From the NCBI RefSeq assembly GCF_026914265.1, contig NC_069127.1, positions 18,859,045 through 18,923,044 on the forward strand: a stretch of DNA of 64,000 bases. The letters are read 5' to 3'. The DNA is from Mya arenaria (lineage: Eukaryota > Mollusca > Bivalvia > Myida > Myidae). Positions within the stretch are counted from its first letter, which is position 1; each line of letters starts with the position of its first letter. Positions 4,121 to 32,200 of the stretch are shown here, piece by piece. The notes under the pieces were generated by a model that saw nothing but the letters and a program-made list of their open reading frames with translations, made no database searches and was not told the origin of the DNA. Both the position numbers and the translations under genes were made by a program.

Positions 4121-4671
4121 GGTTAGTACAAATGCTTAAAAAATTCAATTAAACTGGATTTTTTATTTTTTATATTCATTTCGGCATTAAAATTTTATGC
4201 GCATAACATACGGTCATATCAGAAAACATAAAAACTGGACTCAATAGGGTCAAAAATATATTTAAAGTTAAGTATGTTTAATACTTCACCTTTTGCTGTA
4301 TCCTGCATGTAAGATTTACTACACTAAAAGGTGTATCGCGAATGAAATGGGTCGATATTACTACACCAATAAATAGAATATAGTAATATTTTTTTAATTT
4401 TTTTTTTATAAATGCTAACAGCTAACCGTATTCAATTACATAATGTTTCCTGAAAATATTTAATGTGTCCTGTGTTTTTGTAGTGCACTATGTTACTGTG
4501 GTAGTCTTTATTGAATCAAATGTCATTCATTTTAATTCATTTCACACTTTGTCTGACAAGGTTATTAATCCGTTTTCTCTGGGCGTAGAATTTTTTTTTT
4601 TGCTTAGTAGTTGGTCTTTGAAGCTTCCCCTCGTTGTACTGTTATGTATATGAACTATACCTTTTCACATC

Positions 4672-5075
4672 CATTGTGTTTCAGTTGGTTTATGTATATT
4701 ATTAATTTTGCAACTTTTCTGGGCTCCGATGTAGATGTTATGTAGTTACCCCCTAATGTAATTATTGTGATTAGAAATTGAGTTGTTCGTTGATGAAGCT
4801 GGGTGATGATGCCTTCATTTCACCTTTTCCGAAGAACTGTGCCTATAAATTTCTCATTTGTTACATCCAGTGCGTTTTTGCTGGTTAATGTTTATTACAT
4901 ATTTTGTGATCTTTCTGGGGTTCGATGTAGATTTTATGTCGTTACCCCCTAATGTAATTATTGTGATGTTGGGTTTGAAATTGAGTTGTTCGTTGATGAA
5001 GCTGGGTGATGATGCCTTCATTCCACCTTTTCCGAAGAACTGTGCCTATAACTTTCTCATTTGTTATCAATTTCA
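4672..5075. repeat. Two-copy tandem duplication, about 190-200 bp
   Basis: Two adjacent copies (about 4672-4863 and 4864-5075) share long runs such as TACCCCCTAATGTAATTATT, GAGTTGTTCGTTGATGAAGC and TTTTCCGAAGAACTGTGCCT. They differ at scattered bases and small indels, so the duplication is not very recent. No coding potential is evident. Confidence 0.75.
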
Positions 5076-9884: not shown

Positions 9885-11466
9885 GCAAACACAGTAAACC
9901 ATATACTCTGTATCAAACATCTTTATATAGTGAGCTTGATCATTGTTAACCTGACACTTTATCAAACATCGTATAAAGTAATCAAGCATCTCTATAAAAT
10001 GGCCAGCGACATTGATCATTGTTAATCCAAACTCTGTAACAAACATTTTATATAGTGATCTTGATCATCGTTAACCAAACTCTACATCAAATATCTTCAT
10101 ATAGTGACCTTGATAATTGTGAACCATAAACTCTGTATTAAACATCTTTATATAGTGAGCTTGATCATTGTTAACCTAACTCTGTGTCAAACATCTTAAT
10201 ATAATGACCTTGATCATTGTAAACCAAATTCTGTATTAAACATCTTTATATAGTGAACTTGATCATTGTTAACCACACTCTATATCAAACATCTTTATAT
10301 AGTGACCTTGATCATTGTTAACTACACTCTATATCAAACATCTTTATATAATGACCTTAATCATTGTTAACCACACTTTATATCAAACATCTTTATATAG
10401 TGACCTTGATCATTGTTAACCGCACTTTATATCAAACATCTTTATATAGTGACCTTGATTATTGTTAACCATACTCTGTATCAAACATCTTTATATAGTG
10501 ACCTTGATCATTGTTAACCAAATTCTTTATCAAACATCTTTATATAAAGAGCTTGATCATTGTTAACCTAACTCTGTATCAAACATCTTTATATAGTGAC
10601 CTTGATCATTGTTAACCACACTTTATATCAATCATCTTTATATACTGACCTTGATAATTGTTTACCATACTCTGTATCAACAATCTTTATATAGTGACCT
10701 AGATCATTGTTCCCATAAACTTTGTTTCAAACATCTTTATATAGTGACCTTGATCATTGTTAACTACACTTTATATCAAACATCTTTATATACTGACCTT
10801 GATCATTGTTAACTGGACTTTATATCAAACATCTTTATATAGTGACCTTGATCAATGTTAACCACACTTTATATCAAACATCTTTATATAGTGACCTTGA
10901 TCATTGTTAACCGGACTTTATATCAAACATCTTTATATAGTGAGCTTGATCATTGTTAACCACACTCTATATCAAACATCTTTATATAGTGACCTTGATC
11001 ATTGTTAACCAAATTCTGTATTAAACATCTTTATATAGTGAACTTGATCATTGTTAACCACACTCTATATCAAACATCTTTATATAGTGACCTTGATCAT
11101 TGTTAACCACACTCTATATCAAACATCTTTATATAGTGACCTTGATCATTGTTAACCACACTCTATATCAAACATCTTTATATAGTGAACTTGATCATTG
11201 TTAACCACACTCTATATCAAACATCTTTATATGGCGACCTTGATCATTGTTAACCACTCTCTATATCAAACCTCTTTATATAGTGACCTTGATCATTGTT
11301 AACCACACTCTATATCAAACATCTTTATATAGTGACCTTGATCATTGTTAACCACACTCTGTATCAAACATCTTTATATAGTAAACTTGATCATTGTTAA
11401 CCACACTCTATATCAAACATCTTTATATAGTGACCTTGATCATTGTTAACCATACTCTGTATCAAA
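9885..11466. repeat. Satellite array of a 49-bp unit, about 32 copies
   Basis: The consensus unit reads CCTTGATCATTGTTAACCAC then ACTCTATATCAAACATCTTT then ATATAGTGA, 49 bp in all. It contains a perfect TGATCA palindrome and a GTTAAC palindrome. The first five or so copies are diverged and irregular in length. Copies from about 10250 to 11450 are much more uniform, a gradient expected when unequal exchange homogenises the interior. Open frames across it on either strand are artefacts of the 49-bp period. Confidence 0.95.
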
Positions 11467-26282: not shown

Positions 26283-29200
26283 ATGATGGCATCACTTACT
26301 TTTATGGGCAGTCATTCATGTTTTGTATCAGCCTGCATTTTACTTTCTGTACTCATATCACAATGCGAGGTAAATTTTACGATTTCCTGTAATTTTATTG
26401 GTGAAAATATCTGGGTGGGGTAACATGTATTTATTTTATTTTTTAGAGTTAGGGTGACTTGTACCTTGGACCAATTATCTTACTCCCAGCTTGTACTAAA
26501 CTTGGTGTTATAGTTACATTTATGTTAACGGTAAGGGTTAGTTTTAGGGCATCAAATTGTTACGGACCAAGGGTACATAGAATTACCGGAATCTCCCTAA
26601 CTACCAAAAGCCACCGGAATCTACCGGAATCCCCTGAGAAATAACTTAAATTTAAAACTTAATATTGTTTTAGTTTATATAAGTGTTTGGAGGTGTTTTA
26701 ATTATTTACTACCCATTATATATCATTATGAGCGTATGTACGTACATACTATCTGAAAGGGTACGGGGATTCCGGTAGTTTTCATGTCAGTATACAACGA
26801 CTATAATGAGTATAAGTCTGTATTTAAGGAATATGGATAAGGATTCCGGTAGTTTACCGCTGATTATGTTTTGACCAAGCTACCGGAATCCCCTGTGAAT
26901 TAGTAAAATAACTAAATTTCAATACTATTTCAAGTATTTTAATGCTTGAATATAGAATGAAGTAAGAGTTTTAATCTAAAAGTGACAAGGATTCCGGTAG
27001 TTTACCGCTGATTATGTTTTGACCAAGCTACCGGAATCCCCTGTGAATTACTAAAATAACTAAATTTCAATACTATTTCAAGTATGTTAATGCTTGAATA
27101 TAGAATGAAGTAAGAGTTTTAATCTAAAAGTGACAAGGATTCCGGTAGTTTACCGCTGATTATGTTATGACCAAACTACCGGAATCCCCTGTGAATTACT
27201 AAAATTAGTAAAATAACTAAATTTCAATACTGTTTCAAGTATGTTAATGCTTGAATATAGAATGAAGTAAGAGTTTTGATCTGAAAGTGACAAGGATTCC
27301 GGTAGTTTACCGCTGATTATGTTCTGACAAAACTACCGGAATCCCCTGTGAATTACTAAAATTATTAAAATAACTAAATTTCAATACTATTTCAAGTATG
27401 TTAATGCTTGAATATAGAATGAAGTAAGAGTTTTAATCTGAAAGTGACAAGGATTCCGGTAGTTTACCGCTGATTATGTTCTGACAAAACTACCGGAATC
27501 CCCTGTGAATTACTAAAATTATTAAAATAACTAAATTTCAATACTATTTCAAGTATGTTAATGCTTGAATATAGAATGAAGTAAGAGTTTTAATCTAAAA
27601 GTGACAAGGATTCCGGTAGTTTACCGCTAATTATGTTATGACCAAACTACCGGAATCCCCTGTGAATTACTAAAATTATTAAAATAACTAAATTTCAATA
27701 CTATTTCAAGTATGTTAATGCTTGAATATAGAATGAAGTAAGAGTTTTAATCTAAAAGTGACAAGGATTCCGGTAGTTTACCGCTGATTATGTTATGACC
27801 AAGCTACCGGAATCCCCTGTGAATTACTAAAATAACTGAATTTCAATACTATTTCAAGTATGTTAATGCTTGAATATAGAATGAAGTAAGAGTTTTAATC
27901 TAAAAGTGACAAGGATTCCGGTAGTTTACCGCTGATTATGTTATGACCAAACTACCGGAATCCCCTGTGGAGCGGCCAGACCCCAAACTCCTGCAGGCAC
28001 TCAGGGCTTTCCAGCCCCACCTGGTCGTCATTATCCTAGGGGGGGAAACGACGTATCGGCAACATCATCTCCAAGACAGATCGCCGGAGATGTTCTACAT
28101 CTAAGGGATGTACTCCTGGACGCGGGCGTACAAGAAGTGTACCTCTGTGGCATCACAGAACGCGGTACCTTCCCGAGGAGCGTGGACTTAACCCACCGGA
28201 GTTTCAACGCCCAGAGGAAAAAGATCAACGAAATCTTTAATGACAGCGGCAGCTATTTGTGTATGAAAAATATAAGATTCCCTAAACATTATTTAAAAGA
28301 TTTAGTTCATCTTGATGAGACAGGGTTGAAAAAACTATTTTTCCTCATTCGCGTGGTTATGTTTTGAATTAAATGTGACTTGTTCTTATTGTTTACGAGA
28401 AATAAATTTTCATTTATATCGGTGAATTTGTTTTCCCCATTCAACATAAATAACATTATAAAGGATCAAGAAACAGATTCTGTCCGACATCCATCTATGT
28501 ATTATTGGTACTCTATTGTCACGTGTTAGCGGTCTTCCCTTCCAGCTACAGTAACATCATTCATATTGAAAAAAGAAATATATAGATAGAACACGACACA
28601 AATATACAACAAAATATCATTTTCAAAAACGTAATTCAAATACTCCTATTGTATTCTACGTTAAATCTGAAAAAGAAAACAGTATTGAAATTTAGTCATT
28701 CTGTCTCACAGGGGATTCCGGTTGGGGATTTGGTCAAATCGTTATAATCGACAATCCGACCTGCAAACTACCGGAATCCTTGTCACTTTCTTTATATGGA
28801 AATATGATTATAAAGGTGTACCTCGTAGAACATTACATATATTAAAGCTTAAAAATACCCCAAACAACATTTACGTAATGTTTAATTAGATTTGGGTACC
28901 AAAAATATTTCAGTAAAGTTTAATTATTATTTCTCAGGGGATTCCGGTAGCTTGGTCAAATCGTTATAATTGGCAATCCGACCTGCAAACTACCGGAATC
29001 CTTGTCACTTTCTGTATATGGAAATATGATTATAAAGGTGTACCTCGTAGAACATTACATATATTAAAGCTTAAAAATACCCCAAACAACATTTACGTAA
29101 TGTTTAATTAGATTTGGGTACCAAAAATATTTCAGTAAAGTTTAATTATTATTTCTCAGGGGATTCCGGTAGCTTGGTCAAATCGTTATAATTGGCAATC

Positions 29201-32200
29201 CGACCTGCAAACTACCGGAATCCTTGTCACTTTCTGTATATGGAAATATGATTATAAAGGTGTACCTCGTAGAACATTACATATATTAAAGCTTAAAAAT
29301 ACCCCAAACAACATTTACGTAATGTTTAATTAGATTTGGATACCAAAAACATTTCAGTAAAGTTTAATTATTATTTCTCAGGGGATTCCGGTAGCTTGGT
29401 CAAATCGTTATAATTGGCAATCCGACCTGCAAACTACCGGAATCCTTGTCACTTTCTGTATATGGAAATATGATTATAAAGGTGTACCTCGTAGAACATT
29501 ACATATATTAAAGCTTAAAAATACCCCTAACAACATTTACGTATAGTTTAATTAGATTTTGGTACCAAAAACATTTCAGTAAAGTTTAATTATTATTTCT
29601 CAGGGGATTCCGGTAGCTTGGTCAAATCGTTATAATTGGCAATCCGACCTGCAAACTACCGGAACCCTTGTCACTTTCTGTATATGGAAATATGATTATA
29701 AAGGTATACCTCTTAGTACATAACATATATTAAAGATTAAAAACACCCCAAACAACATTTAAGTATAGTTTAATTATTATTTCTCAGGGGATTCCGGTAG
29801 CTTGGTCAAATCATTATAATCGGCAATCCGACCTGCAAACTACCGAAATCCTTGTCACTTTCTGTATATGGAAATATGATTATAAAGGTATACCTCTTAG
29901 TACATAACATATATTAAAGCTTAAAAACACCCCAAACAACATTTAGGTATAATTTAATCAGATTATGGTAGATTCCGGTGGATTCCGGTAATAAGGGGAT
30001 TCCGGTAATTCTATGGACCGACGGACCAATTGCAAAATTGCTCCCTGGCCTAGGCTTTGCCAGCAAATATAGATAATTCAGCAATGAGCTTGAACCACCC
30101 CCCTCCCTCTTTAGATATGCTTTTAAGCAAAATTTAATGAGTAATCGGTTATCAATAGGATAGAATGCACTATGCATTAATCATTGTCCCTTTTTCGTAC
30201 ACATACCCTCAAATTAGTTGCAAGCTATTTGATACCCTGATTTGGTACTCAATGGGAAACACTATAAGTAAAAATTGGGTGTATTCCCCCTTCCCATCAT
30301 CAGAGATAAAGATAACGTGCATAGTTGCGTATATATATATGCAATTATAAGTAATAAAAGACGCAATTATTCTAAAAATTGGCACATTACAAAAGGTACA
30401 ATGAAAGGCAGAAATGCAAGTTGATAAAGATAATCATGTTGTGAATTAAAAATAAAAATTGGAAACTCAATTCGTCTAAATTTGGTGGACATATTTAACC
30501 TCAGTGAAAGATAGTCCGTTGTTTCCGTGCTTGTTTGATCATTTTCCAGAAGCAAATCAAAAATAAACGGATGCCTCAGAGTAATTGACTATCTATTAGT
30601 ATAAAGGTATTTTATTTAGTATAAGTAAATACGATGCTTTATGATCAAAGGCATGCAGGCGGAATATAACAAGTTTTTTCTGCAAGATTTCCCAAAACAA
30701 TGTCAAAAGAAAGAGGACAAAAAAATTCAGTCAAAACTCAATCAAACACGTTGACAAATTATTTGTATCCACCACAATCTGAGACAATAGTTTGGGAGAT
30801 CTTAAATGAATTAATTATTAACAGGTTTTAAAAAGGGCAAGTTGCTGAAGAAAGGGACAGGGTGTAAATTGTGAAAATGGCACATTGTGTTAGGCTGTGG
30901 ATAACTTGAATATTATAAAATTGACAAACGAACTTCTAGCGACTTTCTGAACAATCTGGCCACTGTAAGAAATGTGTTTAATGGAAGTGTTGTTACATTG
31001 ACATTGTTTTGTGTTTTTGCTTAATAATGAATTATTTATCACACACTATTTTTGATTATTCACAGGGTGCCACCTCAACAAAGACAAGTTTTGAGGATGC
31101 TAGATGCAAGTGTGTGTGCCCGAAATTTCAGAAGGATGCTAACAGCACTGTAAATGAACGTACGGTCTTCATAAGTCCCAATGCTGACCCTAACAATTGG
31201 TATACATCTTTTTTATCCTTTATATAAGTTTTATTAACGGATATTAGGATAATATTCTATGGCATATTCTAGTTTTGGGTTTTGACTTGTGGGGCCGGAG
31301 GGAATGAAACGGGTGGTTTCCACTCAATAACTTTAGTAATAAAACTGTGTGCAGGGGTTTGTGGGGTGAAGTCATTGTTACTAAAATAGAAAAAAATATT
31401 TCTGCTTTATAACATTTATCATCCTTGATGGAGTAATGATGAAACTTTGTGTGGAGGAAGTGTATGTAAAGACCTAATTTGAGATTAATCTATTGCTTTC
31501 AGGGTCAAGGGCACTGCTACTTTAAAAAGAAAATGGTTTCTCCTCCGTATTTTAAGTGTTGATGGATAGTTATAAAATGTTAGAGTTTATGTAGCTTGGG
31601 ATTGTATGATTGTTACTAAAATATAAAAACAACATTTCCATTCAGTAGCTCAAGTTCGATTTAGAATCATACATTAATGAAAAGTTTTGTTAAAGAAACT
31701 TATGTGAAGACATACCTTAGCTTTGCTTTTGGTCAATTGTGTCAAGGTCGCTGTAACTAAACACAAAAAGATGAATTTTGCATTGCACTTTTCATGTTTA
31801 CAATTGTATATATTTATCTGTCTTTCAGCAACTGTGACTTTGTGGTCGGTGACAAGATTGACTCCAAGTTCTGTGCCATGTGCCAGTGTAAATATGAAAA
31901 CAGAAATACAGCTACAATTAAGGTAAATGTTGCTTTATCATATCTGCGTATGTTTTTTGGAGATGCCTTAGTAAATTCCTGTAAAGAATTATATTTTAGA
32001 AATTGCATGTTGATCAAATAACAAGCGTGAACAGAGTCATCACTGTTTTGCCTCATTAAGGTACTCATTTGTACAATGTAGTTCTTTGATATGATATATA
32101 TCATCATGGTTGTTCTTATCCAGTCCAAACCCTTCAACATTTACAGGTAGTTGTGATCATAATCATCTGCGTAACTTCGCTGTTACTGATCTACATGCTG

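Follow-up and report, generated by a model that had tools for sequence, protein, structure and literature searches.

A Foldback-type Mutator-like element of the bivalve Mya arenaria and the probable origin of its SGNH hydrolase piece

Introduction

What kind of genetic object is made of two satellite arrays that face each other in inverted orientation across a fragment of a hydrolase gene? This question is raised by a locus of the bivalve Mya arenaria, lying in a stretch of 64,000 nucleotides (contig NC_069127.1 of assembly GCF_026914265.1, positions 18,859,045 to 18,923,044 of the forward strand) that we shall call the window, and in which positions are counted from its first letter. A sequence-only reading had placed there, between 26564 and 30027, a symmetrical element with inverted ends, inverted arrays and an SGNH-type hydrolase piece in the middle. 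Following the element through the genome (1.216 Gb in 18 contigs), we have come to see it, with high confidence, as a non-autonomous, internally deleted Mutator-like element (MULE) with Foldback-type ends, the full form of which carries both a MULE transposase, with an ovarian-tumour (OTU) protease-like region, and an SGNH hydrolase gene.

Borders and parts of the element

The limits of the element are given by its flanks, where a check for a target-site duplication (TSD) found the exact nine bases ACGGACCAA on both sides. The borders first proposed overshot, since they took in bases of this duplication; the true ones are therefore 26571 and 30020, which makes an element of 3450 bp. Its inverted ends had been recognized correctly, with the core CATAGAATTACCGGAATC at 26576 and its complement at 29998. 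Outermost are short terminal repeats (GGGTACATAG... and ...CTATGGACCG), and the inverted satellite arrays lie inward of them, in the following order:

26562-26570, no strand: left 9-bp TSD ACGGACCAA, exact repeat of 30021-30029
26571-26634, plus strand: left outer terminal inverted repeat (TIR), beginning GGGTACATAGAATTACCGGAATC, the same end across the family
26767-27963, plus strand: left satellite array (Tandem Repeats Finder, TRF, 26839-27969; motif positions; 7 spacer units matched)
27970-28367, plus strand: 3' portion of a hydrolase gene of the SGNH (GDSL) type (tblastn; alignment with the full-length gene of C15, the relative described below)
28401-28406, plus strand: AATAAA polyadenylation-type signal, 33 bases past the hydrolase stop (sequence reading)
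28713-29851, minus strand: right satellite array (TRF 28730-29776 and 29565-29958; 6 spacer units matched)
29970-30020, minus strand: right outer TIR, terminating ...GATTCCGGTAATTCTATGGACCG
30021-30029, no strand: right 9-bp TSD ACGGACCAA, exact repeat of the left copy

When the flanks were joined and compared with the genome, the two halves matched their own locus (query 1-150 and 142-300), overlapping by exactly nine bases; besides this locus the search returned only two matches of 39-41 bp, and no paralogous empty site of the insertion.

Copies and mobility in the genome

The 18-base end core has 84 exact matches in the genome (37 forward and 47 reverse), against none for a control read backward, and a 22-base version, allowing at most three mismatches, has 150 against 12. 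Exact cores lying at most 8 kb from each other form 30 neighbouring pairs, 26 of them plus then minus and four minus then minus, with no other order. Twenty-five of the inverted pairs were fetched and examined, the twenty-sixth being the window element itself, together with 15 stretches around other ends; as the first survey scored 40 of 65 candidates, the copy set is a sample. Among the inverted pairs, 19 have an exact 9-bp TSD, two (L010 and L032) an exact 10-bp one, and L024 a 9-bp one with a single mismatch. Three further elements have a changed end, of which the C2 element (L035 with L049) and L034 are flanked by an exact 9-bp TSD and L037 by none. Over the 29 two-ended elements, which span 571 bp to 8.59 kb, this makes 21 exact 9-bp TSDs, two exact 10-bp, one 9-bp with a mismatch and five cases without any. 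The 21 exact 9-mers are 70% A+T, by eye without obvious consensus.

Searching the genome with the end core and with an array unit, as had been suggested, thus brought out other copies that share their ends and, for the most part, have target duplications. Over 130 codons the hydrolase piece of L026 is separated from that of the window element by no substitution and from that of L022 by one, with one indel in each comparison, and the target duplications of the three copies are all different, which indicates that the deleted form itself moved. Judged from sequence, then, we are dealing with a mobile DNA transposon whose ends are of the Foldback type, a reading founded on the copies of its ends throughout the genome and on the 9- or 10-bp duplications.

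Some neighbouring observations may be recorded here. All four pairs of minus then minus cores, and five of the 84 cores, sit in a free satellite (L038 3052-9885, G000:C4:63037000-63046900), made, in the stretch examined, of about 221 copies of a 31-bp unit, GTGAGAAGGGGATTCCGGTATTTCTATGATT, that resembles the terminal sequence of the transposon; it was probably seeded from a transposon end. The 7.3-kb copy L019 (C8:13566110-13574830) owes its length to an internal open reading frame (ORF) of 1101 aa that looks, by eye, like the endonuclease and reverse transcriptase of a long interspersed nuclear element. Outside the C2 element, at about 3502-4530 of L049 (C2:65173302-65174330), there is a 343-aa ORF resembling, again by eye, a tyrosine recombinase.

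The palindrome arrays

The arrays are inverted copies of one another in layout, as had been claimed, with left units of 148 or 157 bp carrying inverted GGATTCCGGTAGTTT pairs and right units of 222 or 184 bp in the opposite orientation. Each unit was said to hold an inverted pair of one motif. This is true of the units generally, which contain an inverted pair of GGATTCCGGTAG(T/C)TT, and fails for a few mutated copies, such as those at 28713 and 29840. The 10-mers GGATTCCGGT and ACCGGAATCC occur 17 and 13 times in the 3450 bp of the element, where base composition would predict about 0.002, and not once in the remaining 60550 bp of the window. The spacers, described as unrelated, turn out to be partly shared: when left and right units are aligned in the same sense, both contain AAGTGACAAGGATTCCGGTAGTTT and TGACCAA.CTACCGGAATCCCCTG.GAA, while the remaining spacer has diverged. 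Because the motif pair and its immediate neighbours are common and the rest is not, left and right units look like a single ancestral unit that would have split into two end-specific satellites. Between the arrays, inverted arms of 101 nt are complementary at 75%.

The layout was followed with probes made of the left-unit and right-unit spacers, counting matches of at least 45 bp. Throughout the 29 elements every left-unit match is on the plus strand and every right-unit match on the minus strand, right units lying to the right of left units. Both kinds are present in 26 elements (L010 and L017 have right units only, L033 left units only), and the number varies from 0 to 13 on the left and from 0 to 11 on the right, which is the kind of variation by which Foldback-type structures are defined. 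The concern that the arrays might live apart from any common ends is not borne out: a genome search with the left unit gave 244 matches, and 29 of the 31 loci among the matches listed are at most 6 kb from a called end, the two others being C3:77927012 and C17:16783106. Chance, or a static satellite, is rejected as an account of these figures because of the 84 ends against a control of zero and of the 29 of 31 array loci, among the matches listed, beside an end, even if five of the 84 cores belong to the free satellite L038. Elsewhere in the window, at 10008-11466, there are about 30 tandem copies of a 49-bp unit that is without the motif of the element.

A MULE transposase between the same ends

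A longer copy with an intact transposase or recombinase had been proposed as the object to look for. Longer copies bearing a transposase do exist elsewhere in the genome; the gene is broken in those that were read. L015, 5.0 kb long with the family ends, has three ORFs that point the same way (383, 97 and 77 aa), and the 3' end of a transposase gene of this type stands between the same ends in L018, L029 and L030. The C2 element, at 8.59 kb, holds a near-full transposase broken into ORFs of 223, 322 and 244 aa. Upstream of the family transposase is the motif IGDGNCLYRA, which we read as that of an OTU cysteine protease and to which Pfam gives a weak score (0.14). A 200-aa piece of the transposase has 122 matches in the genome, with five places longer than 150 aa and 81-100% identical. 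Ratios of nonsynonymous to synonymous change (dN/dS), which here are pairwise counts on decayed copies and not tree-based tests, amount relative to L015 to 0.43 for C2 and 0.47 for L050, and to 0.91 and 1.02 for the remnants L018 and L029. Pfam detected no FLYWCH domain in the ORF pieces of L015, L018 and C15, whose N-termini may be incomplete; MULEs of the Phantom type may also be without it (Table 1 of PMC6446971). The longer same-ended copies thus encode a predicted MULE transposase with an upstream OTU-protease-like region.

The hydrolase and its place in the family

In the window element the SGNH-like piece and its AATAAA signal are present as reported, with the correction that the piece changes frame in a run of G near 28040 and is without the part bearing the catalytic serine: the GND and DLVH blocks are kept and the GDS block is absent. 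On a reading of L026 identical to the window piece over 130 codons, the Pfam family Lipase_GDSL_2 scores an E-value of 2.4e-5, under its curated cut-off.

The question is whether this piece belongs to the element. In L045 and L046 a family end is followed by a hydrolase in one direction and by OTU and MULE pieces in the other; in L050 MULE and OTU run in one direction, the hydrolase in the opposite one, and a family end follows. The junction found in L037 is of the same bearing: in the stretch tested, the first 604 bases match the 3' flank of the C2 transposase at 99.2% and the rest the hydrolase side of L026 at 97%. From these layouts and this junction, transposase and hydrolase most likely once occupied a single progenitor, in which they faced outward in back-to-back order. 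Relative to L026, the dN/dS of the hydrolase is 0.26 for L050 (dS 0.75), 0.28 for L046, 0.30 for L045 and 0.28 for L048, L045 and L046 being alike and hardly independent; the homologous part of L037 gives 0.36, from three synonymous and four nonsynonymous changes, and the window, L022 and L028 pieces are too close to L026 for the ratio to be used. These values point to a hydrolase that would have been kept working in the lineage from which the copies were spawned.

A relative with different satellites

The most complete view of the two genes comes from a relative on C15 (L051 with L052), a 7.5-kb element whose inverted arrays are made of a different satellite, with motif GTGAAATCCAC. The arrays are alike (95% over 921 columns, and 93% over 621 in a second alignment), and the TSD is GGGCTGATT, extendable to 11 bp; the scan gave one other pair of 9-mers, away from the ends. 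According to Pfam the element has an OTU domain (2e-7, 32.0 bits against a cut-off of 23.3) and a MULE domain (1.5e-8, 35.4 bits against 27.6), as well as Transposase_mut (27.1 against 21). OTU and MULE lie on one strand, in two overlapping ORFs in different frames, and a place 98% identical to this transposase has an open frame of 935 aa with a single TAG in the match.

On the strand opposite to the transposase is an SGNH gene composed of exon 1 (MAQKIALLGDSYIARLGKHCHNDLR), a GT..AG intron and exon 2, 168 aa in total, the splice being a predicted GT..AG junction. By eye the gene shows the blocks GDSY, GGND and DMVH, which we take to be the serine (GDS), asparagine (GxND) and Asp-x-x-His blocks of SGNH enzymes. 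Exon 2 begins after a splice-acceptor-like site alike in L046 and C15, and exon 1 of the C15 type is found at similar spacing elsewhere, on C14, twice on C8, on C11, at C15:25576 and on C7. Between the two families the transposases are 53% identical and the hydrolases about 43%. A scan of viral contigs with the C15 transposase found no relative.

Since an SGNH gene running divergently to the transposase is carried both by decayed family copies and by this TSD-flanked relative, the piece in the window element is probably the remnant of a second gene proper to the family, and not foreign cargo. Most likely, then, the middle of the element is no unrelated piece, the second gene being found beside the transposase in L045, L046, L050 and C15.

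Other traces of the C15 type were noted. On the minus strand of the window, 4453-5045 is a decayed SGNH remnant of this type, overlapping a 203-bp tandem duplication at 4667-5066, and 3.1 kb to the left of the window start there is a MULE match (C6:18855689-18855928). At about 30 places in the genome a C15-type hydrolase is reduced to roughly its last 70 codons, 90-96% identical, which gives the impression that a deletion form of that family had multiplied in the manner of the window element. About 20 further SGNH places, nearly alike, are 36-42% identical to either query and have an open frame of 149 aa.

Weighing the two-gene element

A number of results weigh against this picture of a Mutator-like element with two genes, and are best considered together. 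Among the loci examined, none of the family copies has the two genes intact, and the linkage of the genes in the window family stands on the decayed L045, L046 and L050 and on the chimera L037. The serine exon present in C15 was not found in the family loci examined, and no SGNH match was obtained in the C2 copy of 8.59 kb. The MULE match of the window family is borderline: in L015 the first 200 aa score 27.6 bits, with a Pfam cut-off of 27.6, and the full 383 aa 25.9. Lipase_GDSL_2 on the C15 gene stays just under its own cut-off (1.8e-7, 32.3 bits against 32.9). Sequence searches of the PDB gave no significant match for the hydrolase, and a single-sequence fold of the window piece, a weak model with a mean predicted local distance difference test score (pLDDT) of 64.7, matched no structure at E <= 0.001. 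Five of the 29 elements (L015, L016, L017, L027 and L037) are without a TSD, and the C15 relative has its motif mostly in direct pairs.

Co-occurrence of the two genes over the genome is likewise sparse. The SGNH search gave 148 matches; merged, they form 137 hydrolase loci, of which six lie at most 6 kb from one of 100 merged MULE loci, where 0.14 would be expected. Three of these pairs are divergent and three run in the same direction, two of the latter being apparently one duplicated pair on C8. A second complete pair of lists puts five of 129 hydrolase loci near one of 98 MULE loci, for 0.13 expected, and four of the five are divergent. So small a proportion is compatible with a population in which most copies have suffered deletions, but is by itself no strong proof.

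A mechanism, and what else might account for the locus

We may now propose how such an element would work. In the full element two genes would run outward from the middle, the OTU-MULE transposase ending by the left array and the SGNH gene by the right one. The window copy would be a deletion product, without the transposase and without the 5' portion of the hydrolase, in which both arrays were kept and the left one became fused to hydrolase exon 2; it would have moved by cut-and-paste, leaving the 9-bp duplication observed, with a transposase presumably supplied in trans by a relative. The palindromic pairs of the arrays are most likely binding sites of the transposase, which would assemble the two ends through multiple sites, perhaps as dimer sites. 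The nearest experimental support for this idea is Galileo, where the transposase domain recognizes a site close to the end of the element and more sites have been identified in the tandem repeats (PMC3688188). The arrays, which do vary in number of units, may grow and shrink by unequal exchange. As to the hydrolase, the apparent selection on it suggests that it probably aids the autonomous element in some membrane- or acyl-related step.

The arrays could serve another master. In Arabidopsis VANDAL elements, which are also MULEs, the anti-silencing protein VANC binds short motifs arrayed within tandem repeats of rapid turnover (PMC5735166), and the arrays of the two families studied here are wholly different from each other, so that one might see in them sites meant not for the transposase but for an anti-silencing protein encoded by the element, with the OTU and SGNH products as putative candidates for the role. 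We hold this to be unlikely. In 26 of 29 elements the arrays sit at the ends and are mutually inverted, and copies that have no gene keep them; terminal inverted arrays retained in this way are what is expected of sites needed in cis for transposition.

It is improbable, in our judgement, that the hydrolase piece is a host gene fragment taken up by a satellite-ended MULE in the manner of Pack-MULEs. MULEs do pick up such fragments (PMC6446971, PMC5225508), the window copy has only a 3' fragment of the gene, and a complete hydrolase gene was not seen among the window-family loci examined. Against capture, two families have the hydrolase in the same place and direction relative to the transposase, with transposases only about 53% identical; the dN/dS of L045, L046, L048 and L050 against L026 stays within 0.26-0.30, the first two being mutually close; and exon 2 starts alike in L046 and C15. 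No SGNH match was identified as a host gene among the minority examined of the 148 in the genome.

Insertion of a piece of a retroelement seems to us very improbable, even granting that SGNH/GDSL esterases occur in CR1, L2, RTEX, Penelope-like and rotifer long terminal repeat (LTR) elements (PMC3905857, PMC5408684). The window element has no long ORF besides that of the hydrolase, the C15 gene has a GT..AG intron, and the gene is found inside MULEs of two families. Finally, a satellite carrier of the Helitron or Helentron type is ruled out by the TSDs and TIRs, which Helitrons are not known to make, and, with a MULE transposase present besides the 9-bp duplications and inverted ends, its probability is practically nil. 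This holds despite the report of non-autonomous Helentrons with satellite-like arrays in oyster (PMC7492417).

What a second gene would mean

Returning to the two-gene Mutator-like element, we regard as evenly balanced the broader proposition that a MULE lineage keeps under selection an SGNH hydrolase divergent from its OTU-MULE transposase, even from one family to another with a complete replacement of the satellite ends. If true, an acyl-hydrolase function would have been recruited separately by DNA transposons, as it was by CR1-type retroelements and by rotifer LTR elements. SGNH as the second gene of a cut-and-paste Mutator element would suggest a need that is not tied to an RNA intermediate. 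Membrane or lipid work has been proposed for the retroelement esterases (PMC3905857, PMC5408684); in a TIR transposon it would be without precedent within the open-licence literature searched. The 29 elements, with arrays of none to 13 units, also form a natural series in which growth and replacement of arrays, and the seeding of free satellites, may be followed.

Comparison with known systems

MULEs are reported among the commoner DNA transposons of bivalves (PMC10294476). The marks of the Mutator superfamily are present here: a MULE-type DDE transposase, of borderline profile score, in a same-ended partner, TSDs of 9 or 10 bp, within the 8-11 bp usual for the superfamily, and terminal inverted repeats. 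No family of this layout had been named in the sequence-only reading, and yet parallels with names do exist in Foldback-type ends and in the elements Tm1 (PMC3169594), Muta1 (PMC5225508) and Galileo (PMC3688188). Foldback-type Mutator elements being known from Tm1 and Muta1, the layout itself is not new.

Tm1 of Meloidogyne (PMC3169594) is like the window family in its 9-bp TSD, in its composite inverted ends, built from tandem repeats whose number varies, and in having some copies with a MULE gene beside others resembling miniature inverted-repeat transposable elements. The outermost bases of the two resemble each other and are asymmetric in both, with CGGTTAA at the start and CCTACCC at the end of Tm1 and, in the reverse sense, CGGTCCATAG at the start and CTATGTACCC at the end of the window family. 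Its units, however, measure 13-15 bp, against 148-222 bp with an inverted motif pair here, and its transposase is Phantom-like with a FLYWCH domain, whereas none was detected in the window family; SGNH and OTU have no occurrence in the main text of that paper. Muta1, an active MULE of Aedes aegypti (PMC5225508), shares the 8-9-bp TSD, subterminal tandem repeats and Foldback type, but has 12-bp repeats and a 504-aa transposase, with no second gene mentioned in the description of the element. Galileo of Drosophila (PMC3688188) likewise has long inverted ends with tandem repeats; its transposase belongs to the THAP/P superfamily, unlike MULE, and what it offers for the arrays is an analogy of working, not kinship.

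For the proteins, the likenesses lie elsewhere. MuDR-6_HM of Hydra is a MULE with an ovarian-tumour-type domain, and differs from the window family in being described with one ORF, no TIR and no SGNH (PMC6446971); OTU is also found in Ginger1 and in some Helitron elements (PMC2836005). SGNH genes travel with mobile DNA in the texim genes linked to fish Helitrons (PMC4021074), where the carrier is of the rolling-circle kind, and in the CR1-type esterases (PMC3905857, PMC5408684), where it is a retroelement, not a TIR transposon. Among the best-ranked papers of the open-licence literature, Repbase not being covered, we found no MULE with an SGNH or GDSL gene, and the words SGNH, GDSL and hydrolase have no occurrence in the main text of a survey of 1631 MULE sequences (PMC6446971), nor in that of a survey of arthropod MULEs (PMC13359780). 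The window element belongs, as a new member, to the known non-autonomous elements of the Mutator/Foldback kind, and what the family behind it adds to them is the probable association of an OTU-MULE with a divergent SGNH gene and with palindrome satellites specific to each end.

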